Shown here: positions 9,561-22,812 of the stretch, in pieces
How the letters are laid out: the number at the start of each line of letters is the position of its first letter
Position numbering within the stretch: the first letter of the stretch is position 1
From: Anaeromyxobacter diazotrophicus
GTDB lineage: Bacteria > Myxococcota > Myxococcia > Myxococcales > Anaeromyxobacteraceae
Direction: 5' to 3'
Assembly: GCF_013340205.1 (NCBI RefSeq)
Contig: NZ_BJTG01000006.1
Location: forward strand, 124,001 to 188,000
DNA: 64,000 nt
Position numbers and translations under genes: made by a program
Notes under the pieces: model-generated
The model's database searches: none
What the model was told of the DNA's origin: nothing
What the model saw: the letters and a program-made list of their open reading frames with translations, nothing else

Positions 9561-10223
9561 ATGCACGACCGCCACGACCACGACCGCGACCACGGCCACG
9601 ACCTCGACCGCGGCCACGGCGGGCCGGCGCACGGGCGGCGGGCCCACGGCAACCCGGACGACCTCGACGCCTACGTCGCGCGCCTCACCGGACCGGAGCG
9701 GGACGCGTGGCAGCGGCCGGACGAGGTGCTGGCCGCGCTCGGCGTCGAGCCGGGCCAGACGGTGGCCGACGTCGGCGCCGGGCCCGGGTACTTCACGCTG
9801 CGCCTGGCGCGGGCGGTGGGGCCGCGGGGCCGGGTGTACGCGGTCGAGGTGGTGCCCGAGCTGCTGGGCGTGCTGCGGGCGCGGCTCGACGGCGCCGGGG
9901 TCTCGAACGTGGTGCCGCTCCTCGCGCGCGAGCGCGACTCGCTCCTGCCACCCGCCTCGTGCGACCGCATCCTGGTGGCGGACACCTTCCACCACTTCCC
10001 GGACGGCGTCGCGTACCTGCGCCACCTCGCGGCGGCGCTCCGGCGCGGCGGGTTGCTGGCGAACGTCGACTTCCACCGGCGCGAGACGCCGGTGGGGCCG
10101 CCGCTCGAGCACCGCGTCTCGCGCGAGGACTTCCTCGTCGCCGCCGACCGCGCCGGGCTGGCGGTGATCGGCGAGCCGACCTTCCTGCCCCATCAGTACC
10201 TGGTGCTGATGCGGCCGAGGTGA
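9561..10223 (+). CDS. Class I SAM-dependent methyltransferase with His/Asp-rich N-terminus
   Basis: 220 residues. Motif I 'VADVGAGPGYFTLRLAR' (near 74), 'VYAVEVVPELL' and the post-core 'DRILVADTFHHFPDGVAYLRHLAAALRRGGLLANVDFH' region mark a Rossmann methyltransferase of the UbiE/ArsM-like type. Substrate is unknown. The first ~30 residues are an unusual His-Asp-Arg-Gly run produced by CGACCN hexamers; it could bind metal or be a repeat expansion. The ATG follows GAGGAG with 9 nt spacing. The 3' end overlaps the convergent MauE gene by 31 nt. Confidence 0.78.
   Translation: MHDRHDHDRDHGHDLDRGHGGPAHGRRAHGNPDDLDAYVARLTGPERDAWQRPDEVLAALGVEPGQTVADVGAGPGYFTLRLARAVGPRGRVYAVEVVPELLGVLRARLDGAGVSNVVPLLARERDSLLPPASCDRILVADTFHHFPDGVAYLRHLAAALRRGGLLANVDFHRRETPVGPPLEHRVSREDFLVAADRAGLAVIGEPTFLPHQYLVLMRPR
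9574..9620 (+). repeat. Degenerate CGACCN hexamer tract in methyltransferase N-terminus
   Basis: About seven imperfect copies of the hexamer CGACCN (CGACCA, CGACCG, CGGCCA, CGACCT variants), read in frame as His-Asp/Arg-Asp/His-Gly. The same hexamer appears in addA and the DUF3108 gene but in a different reading frame. Confidence 0.5.
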
Positions 10224-14700: not shown

Positions 14701-14837
14701 GGCCCTTCGGCGACGCGGTGGTGGAGGCGGTGGGGCGCATCCGGGCCGGCGAGCTCCCGATCGCGCCGCGCGACTGCGCCGGGTGTGCGTTCGGGGCCGT
14801 GTGCCGGGCCGAGGCGGTGGCGGAGGAGGCGCCGTGA
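11781..14837 (+). CDS. addB: AddB-like subunit with PD-(D/E)XK nuclease
   Basis: 1018 residues, GTG start. Partner of AddA in double-strand-break resection. The N-terminus ('LCLVPTPLRAARAARRL') is aligned like AddB/RexB but has no Walker A motif. The C-terminal RecB-like nuclease shows 'EGRLAHAVLERFL', 'LLQGRLDRVDA' and 'LVLIDYKNS' (D..D-x-K catalytic set). Cys in 'RHARCPFQLL' plus 'CAGCAFGAVC' form the CxnCx2Cx5C iron-sulfur staple of AddB nucleases. Central region is Ala-rich and diverged. GTGA overlap with addA and GGAGGAGG inside its end show translational coupling. Confidence 0.82.
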   Translation: MPALCLVPTPLRAARAARRLCDAQGGVLLGAHLTTLDRLAPAVLAAARDPRPVLSPLAERLLAAEVGEATGGPLAGAGPGSGLADALAAALGELRRAEASPGTLRAAAGALGGAAGARLALLAGALEAYEARLEAAGALDRAGALRAAAGALQRGAAPEELRELDVLVVEGFRALAPAALDAVGALARRARRTELRLPFFPLRPELCAPVEPLLRRLEGWHELAGERDVTLALEDLELAGRAPRLTAALAALAGGAAGAAGGDGVLLAAAGAGEEGEAEVAAELAAQLVERGFAPDEIAVVAPSAERAAPALARAFAAAGLPFAPGCGPALAEAAPVRAALQALAAAVRPGRAALEAVAASPYLGAARLPARLGYWLDRAGALDGRGDPEAALRARAAALGSPAAARERAELLRSADALQGLSASLRPLGAPGLPREHAARLRGYLAAAGARRRAARAPAEVAARDLAALGRLEDAADELARALSALGRGERRLEAAAWEALLGAAVAGAAAPPPEPAAGAVELWPLSEAPGLSARAVLVTGCNRGAFPAAGRADPFLRDPERAAVNRALGSAALAPGPLRRAEGLHAAFCALAAGREALALTWAAPGPDGSGGPASPLALELLALAGVAPPGAPAGEPALAACRTPAGALRAAARLWREGQGASALAALAGAGDLGARAAAAGARGALERERGEAIAGRRAHPYAGALPPALRAELARALPAEWTPSQLERHARCPFQLLAALVLGLADPEAAELDIDPRDEGRLAHAVLERFLRARLARGSGPLRGGEDERAELRAAAAALFGSFERDGRTGDPALWAGRRAAVLARLERVVQAEAEAAGGAAPALLEYRFGGDSGVPPLAFQGPDGEVLLQGRLDRVDAAPDRLVLIDYKNSASPLWKQKLEPEALGETNFQVPAYLLAAARALPGRVRLEATYLLLRSAVRLAPFAGGADEPLLAASPAAREAARALGVRPFGDAVVEAVGRIRAGELPIAPRDCAGCAFGAVCRAEAVAEEAP

Positions 14838-17800
14838 GCCGCATCGTCTGGGGCGAGGCGGCGCTGGCGCTGTTCCAGCTGACCGGTCCGACCGCGGTGT
14901 CGGCCGGCGCCGGCTCGGGCAAGACCACCTGCCTCGTCGAGCTCTGCCTGCGCCTCCTCTCGGGCGAGGCGACCGGCACGCCCTGCGAGCCGGGCGAGCT
15001 CGTCGCCATCACCTTCACCGAGAAGGCGGCCGCCGAGCTGGAGGAGCGGCTGCGCGAGGCGCTGGCGGCCCGCGCCGCCGCGGCCCCGGCCGGCTCCGAG
15101 GAGGCGCGCGCGTGGCGGCTCCGGCTCGCAGGCCTGGAGCGGATGGCGGTGGGCACCATCCACGCCTTCGCCGGCCGGCTCTTGCGGGAGCACGCGCTCG
15201 AGGCGGGGGTGGACCCGGCGCTGGAGGTCCTGGACGAGGAGACCTCGCAGCTCTGGCGCCGCGAGGCCGCGCGCGCGGCGCTCGTGGCGGCGCTCGACGC
15301 GGGTCGCCCCGAGGCGCGGCGGCTCGCCACCGCGCACGGCGCGGGCGGCCGCCGCGGCGGCCTCGCCGAGCTGGTGGCGGAGCTCGCGCGCGAGCGCGCC
15401 ACGCTGGGCGAGGAGGGCCCGGCGCGCCCGGCCGCGAGCGACGAGGGGGCGGCGCGCGCCGCGCGCGCGGCGGCGATCGCGGCGGCGGAGGCGCTGCTCG
15501 CGGCGCGGTCCGAGGTGAAGACCGCCACCGGCGCCCGCGCGCTGGGCGCGCTGCGGGAGGCGCTGGACGCGCTCGGCGAGGACCGGTCCGGCGCGCTCCG
15601 GGCGGAGGCCCTGAGCCGCTTCGATGCGCTCGCCGGCGCCGTCCGGCCCTGGCGGGTGGGCGCGAGCGACGGGCCCGACGCCCGGGGCCGGAAGGCGGCC
15701 CTGATCGACGCCTGCGAGGCGTTCGGGCCGCTCGCGGCCGAGGTGCTGGCCGACCCGCAGAAGCTGGAGCTGGCGGCGCTCGTGACCGAGGCCGAGGCGC
15801 GCTACGCGGCGCGCAAGGGGGCCGGAGGCGCGCTCGACTTCGACGACCTCCTCGCCCGCGCGCGCGCGCTGCTCCGGGGGGACGCGGCGCTCCGCGCCGA
15901 GCTGCGCGGCCGCGTGCGCGCGCTGCTGGTGGACGAGTACCAGGACGTCAACGCGCTGCAGGAGGAGCTCTTCCAGCTCCTCTCGCGCGACGAGCCCGGG
16001 CTCGCGCCGGGCCCGGTGCTGGTGGCGGTGGGGGATCTCAAGCAGTCCATCTACCGGTTCCGCGGCGCCGACGTGGCCGTCTTCCGCGGCGTGCTGGAGC
16101 GCCTGGCCGCGACCCCGCCCGGGCGGGCGCTGCACCTCTCGGTGAACCACCGCTCCGGCCCCGGGGTGCTGGCGCTCGTCAACGAGGTGTTCGCGCGCTG
16201 CATGCAGCCCGCCGCCTCGGACCCGCGCCCGTACGAGCTGGCCTTCTCCGAGGCCGATCGGCTCGTCCCGGTGCGGCCTCCCGGGCAGGCGCCGGCGTGC
16301 GAGCTGCTGGAGGACGGGGAGGGCGGCCCGAGCGCCGAGCGCCGGGTGCGCGAGGCGCGCGCGGTGGCGGCCCGGGTGCAGGCGCTGGTCTCGGGCGCCG
16401 CCGGGGTGGAGGTCCGCGAGCGCGGGGAGAGCGGCGCGGAGCGCGGGCGGACGCCGCGCCACGGCGACGTCGCCATCCTGTTTCGCCGCCTGACCGAGGT
16501 CGAGACCTACGTCCGGGCGCTGCGCGAGGCGGGGGTGCCGTTCCGCCTCGGCCGCGGCGGAGGCTTCTACCAGGCGCCCGAGGTGCGCGACCTGGGCGAG
16601 CTGGCGGCCGCGCTCACCGCGCCCGACGACGCGCTGGCCTGGGCCGCGCTGCTGCGCTCGCCGCTCTGCGGCGTGTCGGACGGGGTCCTGTTCGCGCTGT
16701 CCAGGCTGGGGCTCGGGACGCTCGCGCGGCGCGAGCCGGAGGCGGTCGTGGAGGCGGTCTGGGCGATGTTTGCGACCGCGAACTCGACCGCGACCTCGGC
16801 CGCGACCTCGACCGCGATGGCGACCGCGACGGCGACCGCGACCTCGACCTCGACCGAGGCGGAGCGCGCAGCCGAGGGCGAGCGGCTGCTCCGGTTCCTG
16901 CGCGCCTGGCACGCGCTGCGGGCGCTCGTCGACCGCGTCCCGGTGGACGAGCTGCTCCGGCGGGCGCTCGCGCTGCTCGACCTCGAGGCGGCGCACCTCG
17001 CGAGCCCCGACGGCGAGCGGCGGTGCGCGAACGTGCGCAAGGCGGTGGCGCTCGCGCGCCGCTTCGCCCAGCGCGGCGGCGGCGCGGCCGGCTTCGCGGC
17101 GCGCCTGCGAACCCTGGCGGCGCGGGAGGCGCGGGAGCCCGAGGCGGAGGTCGAGGCGCCGGACGCGGTCGCGCTGCTCTCGGTGCACCAGGCGAAGGGG
17201 CTCGAGTGGCCGATCGTGTTCGTGCCCGATCTCGGCGCGACCCCGCCGCGCGACGGCCGCCGGGCGGCGCGCCACCCCACGGGCGCGCTGGCGCTGGCGT
17301 TCGCCGACCCGGAGGCCGATCGCCACCACCCCACCGCCGCCCTCGAGGCGGCGCGGGAGGAGGGGCGAAGGGCGGCCGCCGCCGAGTCGCGCCGCCTCCT
17401 CTACGTGGCGCTCACCCGGGCCCGCGATCGGCTCGTGCTCTCCGGCGAGGCGGGGAGGGCGGGCGACACCTGGCGCGCGCTGGTGGAGGCGGGGCTGGCC
17501 GCCCGGCCCGAGCTGGCGTCGCGCGTGCCGCTCGCGGAGGCGGGGGCGTTCCGGGTCGGCGCGGGCGCGACCGCGACCGCGACCGCGAACGTGACCTCGA
17601 CCTCGAGCTCGACGGCGACCGCGACCTCGAACGCGACCTCGACCTCGACCGCGACCTCGACCGCGACCTCGAATGCGACCGCGATCGGAGCGCGGGGCGC
17701 GGGGGACGTGGCGCCTCCTCGCCTGGCGAGGCCCGCGCCGCCGCCCGCCGTGCGCGTCGCGGTGACCGCGCTCGCCGAGCACGCGCGCTGCCCGAGGCGC

Positions 17801-18553
17801 GTCCACTTCTCGCGGCAGCTCGGGCTGCCCGAGCTGGCCGGCGAGCGCGGCCCGTCGCAGGACGACCCGGACCGCGCCACCGCCCGCGGGACGCTGGCCC
17901 ACGCCATGCTGGCCGAGGTCGATCTGGCGGCGCCGCCGCTGGAGCGGCGGGTGCTGCTCGCGGCGGCGGCGTCGCGGCGCGGATACGACCCGCGCTCGCC
18001 GGGTGTCCGCCGCATCGCCGCGGACGTCTCGCGCTTCCTCGACGCGCCGTCGGCGCGGCGGCTGGCCCGCGCGGCGGCGGAGGGGCGCCTCCGGCGCGAG
18101 GTGCCGTTCCTGCTCCGGCTCGGCGGAGACGGCGCGCCCCTCTGCTATCTCACCGGGGCTATCGACGCGCTGCTGGAGGAGCGCGGGGGCCTGGCGGTGG
18201 TCGACTTCAAGTACGCGCTGTGCCGCCCCGGCGCGGCGGAGCGGTACCGGCTGCAGCTCGTCGCGTACGCGCTGGCCGCGGCCCGCGCCTTCCCCGGCCA
18301 GCGGGTCACGGCCAGCCTCCAGTTCCTGCGCGGCCCCTGCGCGGCGGTGGACGTCACCCCCACCCAGGCGGAGCTGCGACAGTTCGCGCGCGAGGCGCCG
18401 CGGCTGGCGCAGGCCGTCCAGGCCGGCGAGGGGTACGCGAGCACGCCGGCCGCGCTCGGCCGCGACGCGGCGCGCTGCCGGTCGGAGGGGTGCGGCTACC
18501 TCGCGCGCTGCTTCCCGGGCGACCCGTCTCCGGCGGACGCTCCGCGCGGCTAG
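14834..18553 (+). CDS. addA: AddA-like UvrD/RecB helicase-nuclease
   Basis: 1239 residues. All SF1A helicase motifs are intact: 'SAGAGSGKT' (23-31), 'VAITFTEKAAAELEERL', 'LVDEYQDVN', 'GDLKQSIYRFRGAD', 'LSVNHRSGPGV', 'LLSVHQAKGLEWPIVF', 'RRLLYVALTRARDR'. The C-terminal nuclease has 'TARGTLAHAML', 'LTGAIDALL' and 'LAVVDFKYAL'. The heterodimer with AddB loads RecA at broken ends. Two odd Thr/Ala/Ser runs (about residues 647-674 and 912-951) come from hexamer DNA repeats; the first sits in the 2B-side region, the second in the helicase-nuclease linker. Extra Cys ('HARCPRR', 'CRSEGCGYLARC') resemble the AddB iron-sulfur staple. Its TAG stop shares CTAG with the opposite gene. Confidence 0.88.
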   Translation: MSRIVWGEAALALFQLTGPTAVSAGAGSGKTTCLVELCLRLLSGEATGTPCEPGELVAITFTEKAAAELEERLREALAARAAAAPAGSEEARAWRLRLAGLERMAVGTIHAFAGRLLREHALEAGVDPALEVLDEETSQLWRREAARAALVAALDAGRPEARRLATAHGAGGRRGGLAELVAELARERATLGEEGPARPAASDEGAARAARAAAIAAAEALLAARSEVKTATGARALGALREALDALGEDRSGALRAEALSRFDALAGAVRPWRVGASDGPDARGRKAALIDACEAFGPLAAEVLADPQKLELAALVTEAEARYAARKGAGGALDFDDLLARARALLRGDAALRAELRGRVRALLVDEYQDVNALQEELFQLLSRDEPGLAPGPVLVAVGDLKQSIYRFRGADVAVFRGVLERLAATPPGRALHLSVNHRSGPGVLALVNEVFARCMQPAASDPRPYELAFSEADRLVPVRPPGQAPACELLEDGEGGPSAERRVREARAVAARVQALVSGAAGVEVRERGESGAERGRTPRHGDVAILFRRLTEVETYVRALREAGVPFRLGRGGGFYQAPEVRDLGELAAALTAPDDALAWAALLRSPLCGVSDGVLFALSRLGLGTLARREPEAVVEAVWAMFATANSTATSAATSTAMATATATATSTSTEAERAAEGERLLRFLRAWHALRALVDRVPVDELLRRALALLDLEAAHLASPDGERRCANVRKAVALARRFAQRGGGAAGFAARLRTLAAREAREPEAEVEAPDAVALLSVHQAKGLEWPIVFVPDLGATPPRDGRRAARHPTGALALAFADPEADRHHPTAALEAAREEGRRAAAAESRRLLYVALTRARDRLVLSGEAGRAGDTWRALVEAGLAARPELASRVPLAEAGAFRVGAGATATATANVTSTSSSTATATSNATSTSTATSTATSNATAIGARGAGDVAPPRLARPAPPPAVRVAVTALAEHARCPRRVHFSRQLGLPELAGERGPSQDDPDRATARGTLAHAMLAEVDLAAPPLERRVLLAAAASRRGYDPRSPGVRRIAADVSRFLDAPSARRLARAAAEGRLRREVPFLLRLGGDGAPLCYLTGAIDALLEERGGLAVVDFKYALCRPGAAERYRLQLVAYALAAARAFPGQRVTASLQFLRGPCAAVDVTPTQAELRQFAREAPRLAQAVQAGEGYASTPAALGRDAARCRSEGCGYLARCFPGDPSPADAPRG
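16772..16855 (+). repeat. Hexamer tract 1 in addA (14 units of GCGACC type)
   Basis: Fourteen consecutive hexamers, GCGACC or TCGACC with a few substitutions (GCGAAC, TCGGCC, GCGATG, GCGACG). Read in frame as Ala-Thr/Ser-Thr, an insertion between conserved helicase blocks. Confidence 0.85.
17567..17686 (+). repeat. Hexamer tract 2 in addA (20 units)
   Basis: Twenty consecutive hexamers of the same GCGACC/TCGACC family with variants (GCGAAC, GTGACC, TCGAGC, TCGAAT). Encodes about 40 residues of Thr alternating with Ala or Ser in the linker before the nuclease domain. Confidence 0.85.
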
Positions 18554-21999: not shown

Positions 22000-22005
22000 A
22001 GTCTA
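22000..22005 (-). promoter_or_regulatory. -10-like element before DUF3108 copy 1
   Basis: On the minus strand TAGACT ends 6 nt before the ATG at 21993; no Shine-Dalgarno between. It overlaps the stop codon of DUF3108 copy 2. Confidence 0.33.
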
Positions 22006-22812
22006 CCGCGAGGCCGCCTGCGCGCCACCGGGGCGATAGCCGCTCACCGTGACCACCACGCTCCCCACCGCGAAGTCGGCGGTCATGCGCACCGGGATGT
22101 GCCGCGGGTCGCGCGAGAGCCACAGGTGCGCGTCGCGCTGGCTGCGGAACTGGTCCTTCAGGCCGAGCTGGACCTTCAGGCGGGTGGTGTCGAAGCGCCC
22201 GGCCGGCGTCTCGAGCGTCTCGTCCCCTTCCACCTCGGCGCGGAGCGTGAAGACCTCCTTCCCCGAGAAGACGGGCAGCTCGTAGCGATCGCCGGGCCGC
22301 AGCGGCGCGAGGCGCAGGGCGAGGAGCACGCTCGCCAGATCCTGGATGTCGCCCGGTACGTCCTGCGTGGTCCGGGTCAGGCGTCCCTTGCGGAGCACCT
22401 GCACGAGCGCCTTCCCGCTCTCCCGGTCGAAGCGCGCGCGGTCGGTGTGCCGGTCTCCAGGCTCGATGGCGTTGAGGTCGGTCCCGCGGGAGGCCCGGCG
22501 CTCGGCGTCCCAGTAGGAGACGTAGTGCTCCCGGATGTCGAGCAGCGAGGCGAGCCCCCCGGTCTTGCCCTGGCAGAAGATCGGCCACACCGGGCCCTCG
22601 GGCTGGCCCACCGAGAGGCGCGCCTCGCCGGCGCGCACGTGCAGGAAGTCGATGACGAGGTCGATCTGCTCACCCGGCGCGAACGGAAGCTCTCCGGTCG
22701 CGGTCGCGGTCGCCGTCGCGTTCGAGGTCGAGTTCGAGTTCGAGTTCGAGGTCGAGGTCGCGGGGCCCGCGGTCGCGAGCGCAGCTGCCAGGAGGGCGGC
22801 GGTGATCGTCAT
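22003..22812 (-). CDS. DUF3108 exported protein (copy 2) with hexamer-repeat insertion
   Basis: 269 residues. Signal peptide 'ITAALLAAALATAGPA', then about 22 residues of Thr/Ser/Asn/Ala (18-39) from a hexamer DNA repeat, then a DUF3108 domain: 'LPFAPGEQIDLVIDFLHVRAGEARLSVG', 'YVSYWDAERRASRGTDLNAIEPGD', 'YELPVFSGKEVFTLRAEVEGDETL', 'GRFDTTRLKVQLGLKDQF', 'AHLWLSRDPRHIPVRMTADFAVGSVVVTVSGYRPG'. Paralogue of the next gene and in the same orientation. The insertion sits exactly where a signal peptidase would cut, a place tolerant of added residues. Confidence 0.83.
   Translation of the reverse strand: MTITAALLAAALATAGPATSTSNSNSNSTSNATATATATGELPFAPGEQIDLVIDFLHVRAGEARLSVGQPEGPVWPIFCQGKTGGLASLLDIREHYVSYWDAERRASRGTDLNAIEPGDRHTDRARFDRESGKALVQVLRKGRLTRTTQDVPGDIQDLASVLLALRLAPLRPGDRYELPVFSGKEVFTLRAEVEGDETLETPAGRFDTTRLKVQLGLKDQFRSQRDAHLWLSRDPRHIPVRMTADFAVGSVVVTVSGYRPGGAQAASR
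22696..22761 (-). repeat. Hexamer tract in DUF3108 gene (11 units)
   Basis: Eleven hexamers; on the coding strand they read GCGACC, TCGACC, TCGAAC and GCGACG, same family and same reading frame as the addA tracts. Confidence 0.85.

Follow-up and report, generated by a model that had tools for sequence, protein, structure and literature searches.

The window, by which we mean the whole 64-kb stretch of DNA analysed here, comes from contig C6 of a 4.83-Mb genome (G000) of the Anaeromyxobacteraceae, a family of soil bacteria; the closest named relatives of its AddA belong to an Anaeromyxobacter MAG and to A. soli. Two of its genes are interrupted by tandem arrays of a hexamer with five fixed letters and one free, written CGACCN on one strand and GGTCGN on the other, and a third gene begins with a stretch that resembles it:

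9561..10223, plus strand: methyltransferase gene, His/Asp-rich at its N-terminus (9561-9630)
9574..9620, plus strand: hexamer-like stretch at the methyltransferase N-terminus, a conserved protein feature judged to lie outside the array family
14834..18553, plus strand: addA, host of arrays 1 and 2 (frame 2; start codon assumed)
16772..16855, plus strand: CGACCN array 1 in addA, 14 hexamers in frame encoding Thr-(Ala/Ser), in a hypervariable linker
17567..17686, plus strand: CGACCN array 2 in addA, 20 hexamers, in the linker joining the helicase part to the nuclease part
about 22003..22812, minus strand: DUF3108 gene, host of array 3 (start codon assumed)
22696..22761, minus strand: CGACCN array 3, 11 hexamers, between a predicted signal peptide and the mature DUF3108 domain

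The tracts in the window are real, with a three-unit pattern matching nine times as compared to no match in 100 dinucleotide-preserving shuffles. Array 1, described in the original prediction as fourteen in-frame GCGACC/TCGACC units, does consist of 14 hexamers in frame (period 6 and 14.2 copies by TRF), but only 10 of these are exact by direct count, the other four differing by one or two letters. The hexamers that had also been reported at the positions of arrays 2 and 3 are present as well, 13 of 20 and 6 of 11 being exact, respectively. We saw no evidence of function for the arrays in addA and the DUF3108 gene.

Propagation across some 13 kb, as originally proposed, is the wrong scale for this repeat, which is found genome-wide and family-wide. 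G000 has 329 four-unit CGACCN windows (135 forward and 194 reverse) versus one for a reversed control, and a scan with at least five units gives 250. Five-unit matches occur in 17 of the 145 genomes of the order, with 1,271 such windows in G019 (5,277,990 bases), 1,048 in G022, 257 in G029, the 250 of G000, 146 in G021, 84 in G030, 55 in G018 (whose AddA is the same as that of A. soli SG29), 44 in G017, 26 in G038, 25 in G050, 23 in G040, 21 in G031, 14 in G025, 10 in G016, 2 in G035, and 1 each in G093 and G106. None was found in G001, the only congener of G000 (92% complete), or in G014, G015 and G020, all in the genus of G019; the range among Anaeromyxobacteraceae is 0 to 1,271, even inside one genus. 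When the phylum was scanned with six units, 16 of 195 genomes matched, and the sole match outside the order was a single CGACCA run in G162. CGACCN is one repeat that has been multiplied in some genomes of the family and not in others. The genome of Anaeromyxobacter sp. Fw109-5 was Sanger-sequenced (PMC4319575), and library artefacts of newer methods are unlikely to account for the G019 arrays if G019 is that strain, an identity that we infer. The reversed control, CCAGCN, itself gave 18 five-unit matches in G075 and 6 six-unit matches in G147, and other lineages may carry other hexamer satellites.

Hardly any other short unit is expanded in the DNA that we sampled. Run on an initial 464 kb, made up of the window and 20 other stretches, TRF reported six period-6 loci scoring at least 60, those listed having the CGACCN unit, and no array of period 1-5 at that score. 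We further searched, naming no motif beforehand, for five-hexamer windows in which one column, and no other, varied, and in 1,481 of the 1,583 period-6 windows retrieved the variable column was the N of CGACCN (228/274 in 1.058 Mb of G000, 770/806 in 0.6 Mb of G019, 272/280 in 0.2 Mb of G029, and 211/223 in 0.4 Mb of G022). Such windows were absent from 200-kb regions of G014 and G023, and the few in a 200-kb region of G016 had other units. The set of alleles at N is restricted and specific to the genome: C, G and T in G019 (A in 0 of 199), C and T only in G022 (A or G in 0 of 64), and mainly G and T in G000.

The position of the repeat relative to genes was examined in 53 sampled arrays (24 from G000, 14 from G019, 10 from G029 and 5 from G022). 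The G000 sample includes the contig of the window, picked for the finding; the other 794 kb contributed 19 of the 24. Five arrays had both flanks coding in one frame, 25 had one coding flank and 23 had neither, these calls being based on 150-base flanks and conservative and weak, to the extent that array 2 of addA, which is certainly coding, scored "one flank". By these weak calls, the majority of arrays are intergenic or at the edge of a gene, and those within genes mainly occupy linkers.

The letters at N, read along an array, serve as a marker of its growth, and reveal tandem duplications of 1, 2, 3 and about 10 units. Strings such as CGCGCG... and CGCGCGCGCG record duplications of two units and GGCGGCGGC of three, CCTTTCGCCC occurring twice marks a duplication of about ten, and long runs of T mark duplications of one; in G019, the letters at N of units two steps apart agree at a rate of 0.68, versus 0.34 expected. 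Such block duplications are a mark of DNA-level slippage or unequal exchange. Several non-coding arrays also carry frame-shifting indels. As in microsatellites, tandem duplication within arrays is accompanied by length change between relatives (the addA linker and the genome counts). Ongoing expansion is inferred, the comparisons being between species with one genome per species. The view that this is a repeat expanding at the DNA level is therefore borne out by the low share of arrays within genes (5 of 53), the duplications, the indels, and the variation in length and presence between relatives. Taken as a whole, the tracts are best explained as a lineage-specific, genome-wide CGACCN satellite that grows by DNA-level duplication, an explanation that we regard as probable.

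One property of the arrays speaks against plain slippage, which, with random mutation, does not predict that in non-coding arrays one column of the six is alone in varying. Some factor restrains CGACC or favours variation at N; tentatively, we would read the near-invariant core as the outcome of concerted evolution that draws on a small pool of alleles of the unit. The restricted, genome-specific set of letters at N is a further difficulty. Alternatively, the arrays may be a selfish or functional multi-site DNA element, and no passive microsatellite, whose CGACC is selected or made by a binding protein, a nuclease or a template-driven copying enzyme that reads it while the sixth base stays free, which we consider unlikely. 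The narrower idea, of a functional array under selection in which CGACC is the recognition site of a DNA-binding protein or nuclease and the sixth base is unread, seems unlikely to us as well. It would fit the observation that N alone varies in four genomes of three genera in which most arrays are not within genes, and that arrays occur in both orientations to their neighbours, as for a DNA rather than an RNA element. However, some congeners are wholly without arrays, the arrays share no position relative to genes, those in addA are degenerate at core positions, and the restricted alphabet at N is not expected of a truly unread base. The orientations themselves, scored for 39 arrays, were 15 (+,+), of which several lie inside genes, 7 (-,-), 10 convergent, 5 divergent and two at edges; with no clear bias among them, an RNA-level role as a Rho or 3'-UTR signal was rejected.

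Inside genes, the arrays mostly encode Thr-(Ala/Ser/Pro). Both addA tracts and the DUF3108 tract are in the NCG.ACC frame by direct reading, as are 4 of the 5 arrays with two coding flanks, the fifth being in GAC.CNC. Their places are variable among relatives. The first AddA linker is hypervariable and contains arrays only in G000 and G029; G016 has a long Thr/Ser/Pro/Asn-rich stretch there, G001 and G031 have short ones (Thr/Ser in G031, a congener of G029, in place of the array), and the other relatives have none. The array of the second linker is unique to G000 among the 16 genomes that show this linker, being absent from 15 relatives, and the DUF3108 array is missing in 5 of 5 orthologues. 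By eye, a further array, in G019 (L223:17054-17184, minus strand), lies in frame between two copies of a REP-like palindrome in a dnaE2-like gene.

The common frame, the other low-complexity linkers that relatives have at the same places, and the rarity of A at N (which would give Thr-Thr) could all be taken to mean that Thr-(Ala/Ser/Pro) linkers are favoured at the protein level and that the DNA pattern follows from codon choice. We consider this improbable, since 23 of the 53 arrays have no coding flank, synonymous third positions are nearly constant in near-perfect arrays, and indels break the frame in non-coding arrays, for which protein-level selection is largely refuted.

The original argument for a DNA-level repeat from a change of frame did not survive. 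It relied on the stretch at 9574-9620, which encodes MHDRHDHDRDHGHDLDRGHG at the start of the methyltransferase and had been taken for a degenerate member of the family. The stretch is indeed hexamer-like, but a His-rich N-terminus is found in 5 of 5 syntenic orthologues examined (G014, G016, G019, G023 and G029), and is kept in G014, G016 and G023 although the sampled 200-kb regions of these genomes have no array. It is an older, conserved protein feature, possibly a metal-binding leader, which we did not count and which gives no ground for supposing that one repeat changed frame; arrays within genes, as described above, mostly keep a single frame.

Several dispersed elements adjoin the arrays. 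In G019, 7 of 14 arrays directly abut the inverted-repeat ends of a multicopy element that encodes an HNH nuclease (presumably DUF222-like), and 2 of 14 abut the end of a REP-like palindrome. The element ends read like GTCATTCATCACAT, and some copies have arrays on both sides in direct orientation; copies lie on contig C1 of G019 at 1505661-1507867, 1470282-1472455 and 1618456-1620446 (in L155-L164) and in L220, and some are frameshifted. In G000, a dispersed non-coding repeat of ~320 bp (L144:11827-12140, L137:13722-14040, L136:6453-6720 and L144:7623-7927) is flanked on both sides by arrays at two places. A box, GGGCGAGGGG, lies upstream of 7 of the 24 G000 arrays, and an array or CGACC cluster follows 6 of the 13 occurrences of GGGC[GA]AGGGG[AG]G in this genome. 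No repeated array flank was found in a 200-kb sample of G029.

These neighbours raise the question of whether a mobile HNH element makes and spreads the arrays, its nuclease cutting within them. The adjacency in G019, where directly oriented arrays flank some copies on either side, would be in line with this, but array-free G014 and G015 contain the family, and it had no match at E 1e-10 in array-bearing G029, G031, G038 and G040. The element may therefore spread arrays but does not generally make them: its distribution rules out the nuclease as a general cause, making the idea very unlikely, though it may act locally, spreading arrays in G019 and closely related genomes. Least credible is a general failure of mismatch repair or replication fidelity expanding all microsatellites, which would account for patchy, lineage-specific bursts, but in our samples CGACCN is the only short-unit satellite with expansion on this scale, and they suggest that other satellites are equally rare in array-rich and array-free genomes.

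In the satellite explanation that we prefer, arrays would start from short CGACC-bearing seeds and grow as blocks of one to about ten units are duplicated in tandem, probably through replication slippage or unequal exchange. Some could then have spread further by way of the dispersed elements that they are observed to abut, namely the HNH element ends, the REP-like palindromes and the ~320-bp repeat. Arrays can also survive within genes because their unit leaves the reading frame intact and is free of stop codons whichever of the six frames is read. They would do so mainly in flexible inter-domain and post-signal linkers that tolerate them, mostly in the frame for Thr-(Ala/Ser/Pro), whose residues are small and polar. 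Two ideas about the choice of unit were rejected: self-folding (among 20 permutations, CGACC comes 13th in predicted DNA hairpin energy), and a staggered cut with a single base added (there is no rise at spacings of 5 and 7 over neighbouring spacings).

The CGACCN pattern also occurs in at least 120 stretches of IMG/VR viral contigs (80 loci among the matches listed), where it belongs to a different, coding context. Among the matches listed, the gene of a small protein ends beside the array in 41 of 63 viral contigs with strong arrays, and a search by this protein alone retrieved 80 loci (L515-L594), with a hexamer array downstream of its stop codon in 72 of the 78 testable, mostly within some 40 bases. 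A second gene starts at most 20 bases from the stop of the first in 60 of 63 examined, and its product reads MNxAxLRxGxD followed by (Ser-X)n, in which X is mostly Trp, Arg or Gly. The phage arrays are thus coding, and their repeat is often the CGACCN hexamer; each phage mostly keeps to one Ser codon (TCG, TCA, AGC or TCT), which differs between phages. The small protein is predicted to have an Sm/LSm fold: its model (mean pLDDT 86.7) has its best structural matches among Sm/LSm proteins (top E 2.7e-3, none at or below 1e-3), with archaeal SmAP at 1.3-1.4 A rmsd. PHROGs gave no match for three members and Pfam nothing above cut-off (best E 0.002), and in the named collection only two phages matched, both uncultivated (L595:2917-3383, MW202573.1, and L596, MW202825.1). 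This pair, of an LSm-fold protein (as predicted) and a translationally coupled (Ser-Trp/Arg/Gly)n protein, is undescribed. A phage origin of the bacterial arrays was rejected, since the reversed control pattern is likewise abundant in IMG/VR among the matches listed, and the tested phage arrays are coded in a different frame, TCG.NGG; the small protein had no match in 24 of 24 genomes of the family, in a search run without a positive control.

We found no paper on a CGACCN repeat in the open-access literature searched. The STRR heptanucleotide repeats of heterocystous cyanobacteria are dispersed short-unit tandem repeats, as CGACCN is, and differ from it in unit and lineage. CGACCN, with its near-invariant five-base core and free sixth base, goes from absent to more than 1,000 windows among congeners and enters conserved genes like addA. 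Two questions thereby become testable: what determines the hexamer that expands, and how new protein linkers arise from in-frame satellites.

A large survey concludes that short tandem repeats are not enriched in bacteria taken together (PMC12699852). The closest known kind are the GGGNATC heptamers of Xanthomonas and Nostoc, which are genome-wide, over-represented outside genes and highly variable in unit number (Rehm et al. 2015, PMC4692102). They share with CGACCN a short tandem unit with one degenerate base, a genome-wide spread, a widely varying unit number and a non-coding excess (on our weak coding calls), but theirs is a 7-base GGG-N-ATC unit whereas CGACCN is a frame-neutral hexamer of period 6. 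GGGNATC prefers four units, unlike CGACCN, in which perfect runs of exactly four show no excess (7 in G000, 1 in G019, 0 in G029 and 1 in G022). Another difference is the swing of CGACCN between 0 and more than 1,000 windows within a genus. The GGGNATC type is one of G-quadruplex repeats; a canonical G4 motif, scored as a sequence motif alone, is present in only 14 of our 53 arrays (1/24 in G000, 6/14 in G019, 3/10 in G029 and 4/5 in G022). The TAACTGA heptamers of Beggiatoaceae, Cyanobacteria and Bacteroidetes lie mostly just upstream of start codons in the BOGUAY genome (MacGregor 2015, PMC4679880). TAACTGA and CGACCN are both lineage-patchy, dispersed direct repeats of one unit whose related units are unexpanded, and CGACCN differs in having no fixed position and in its free base.
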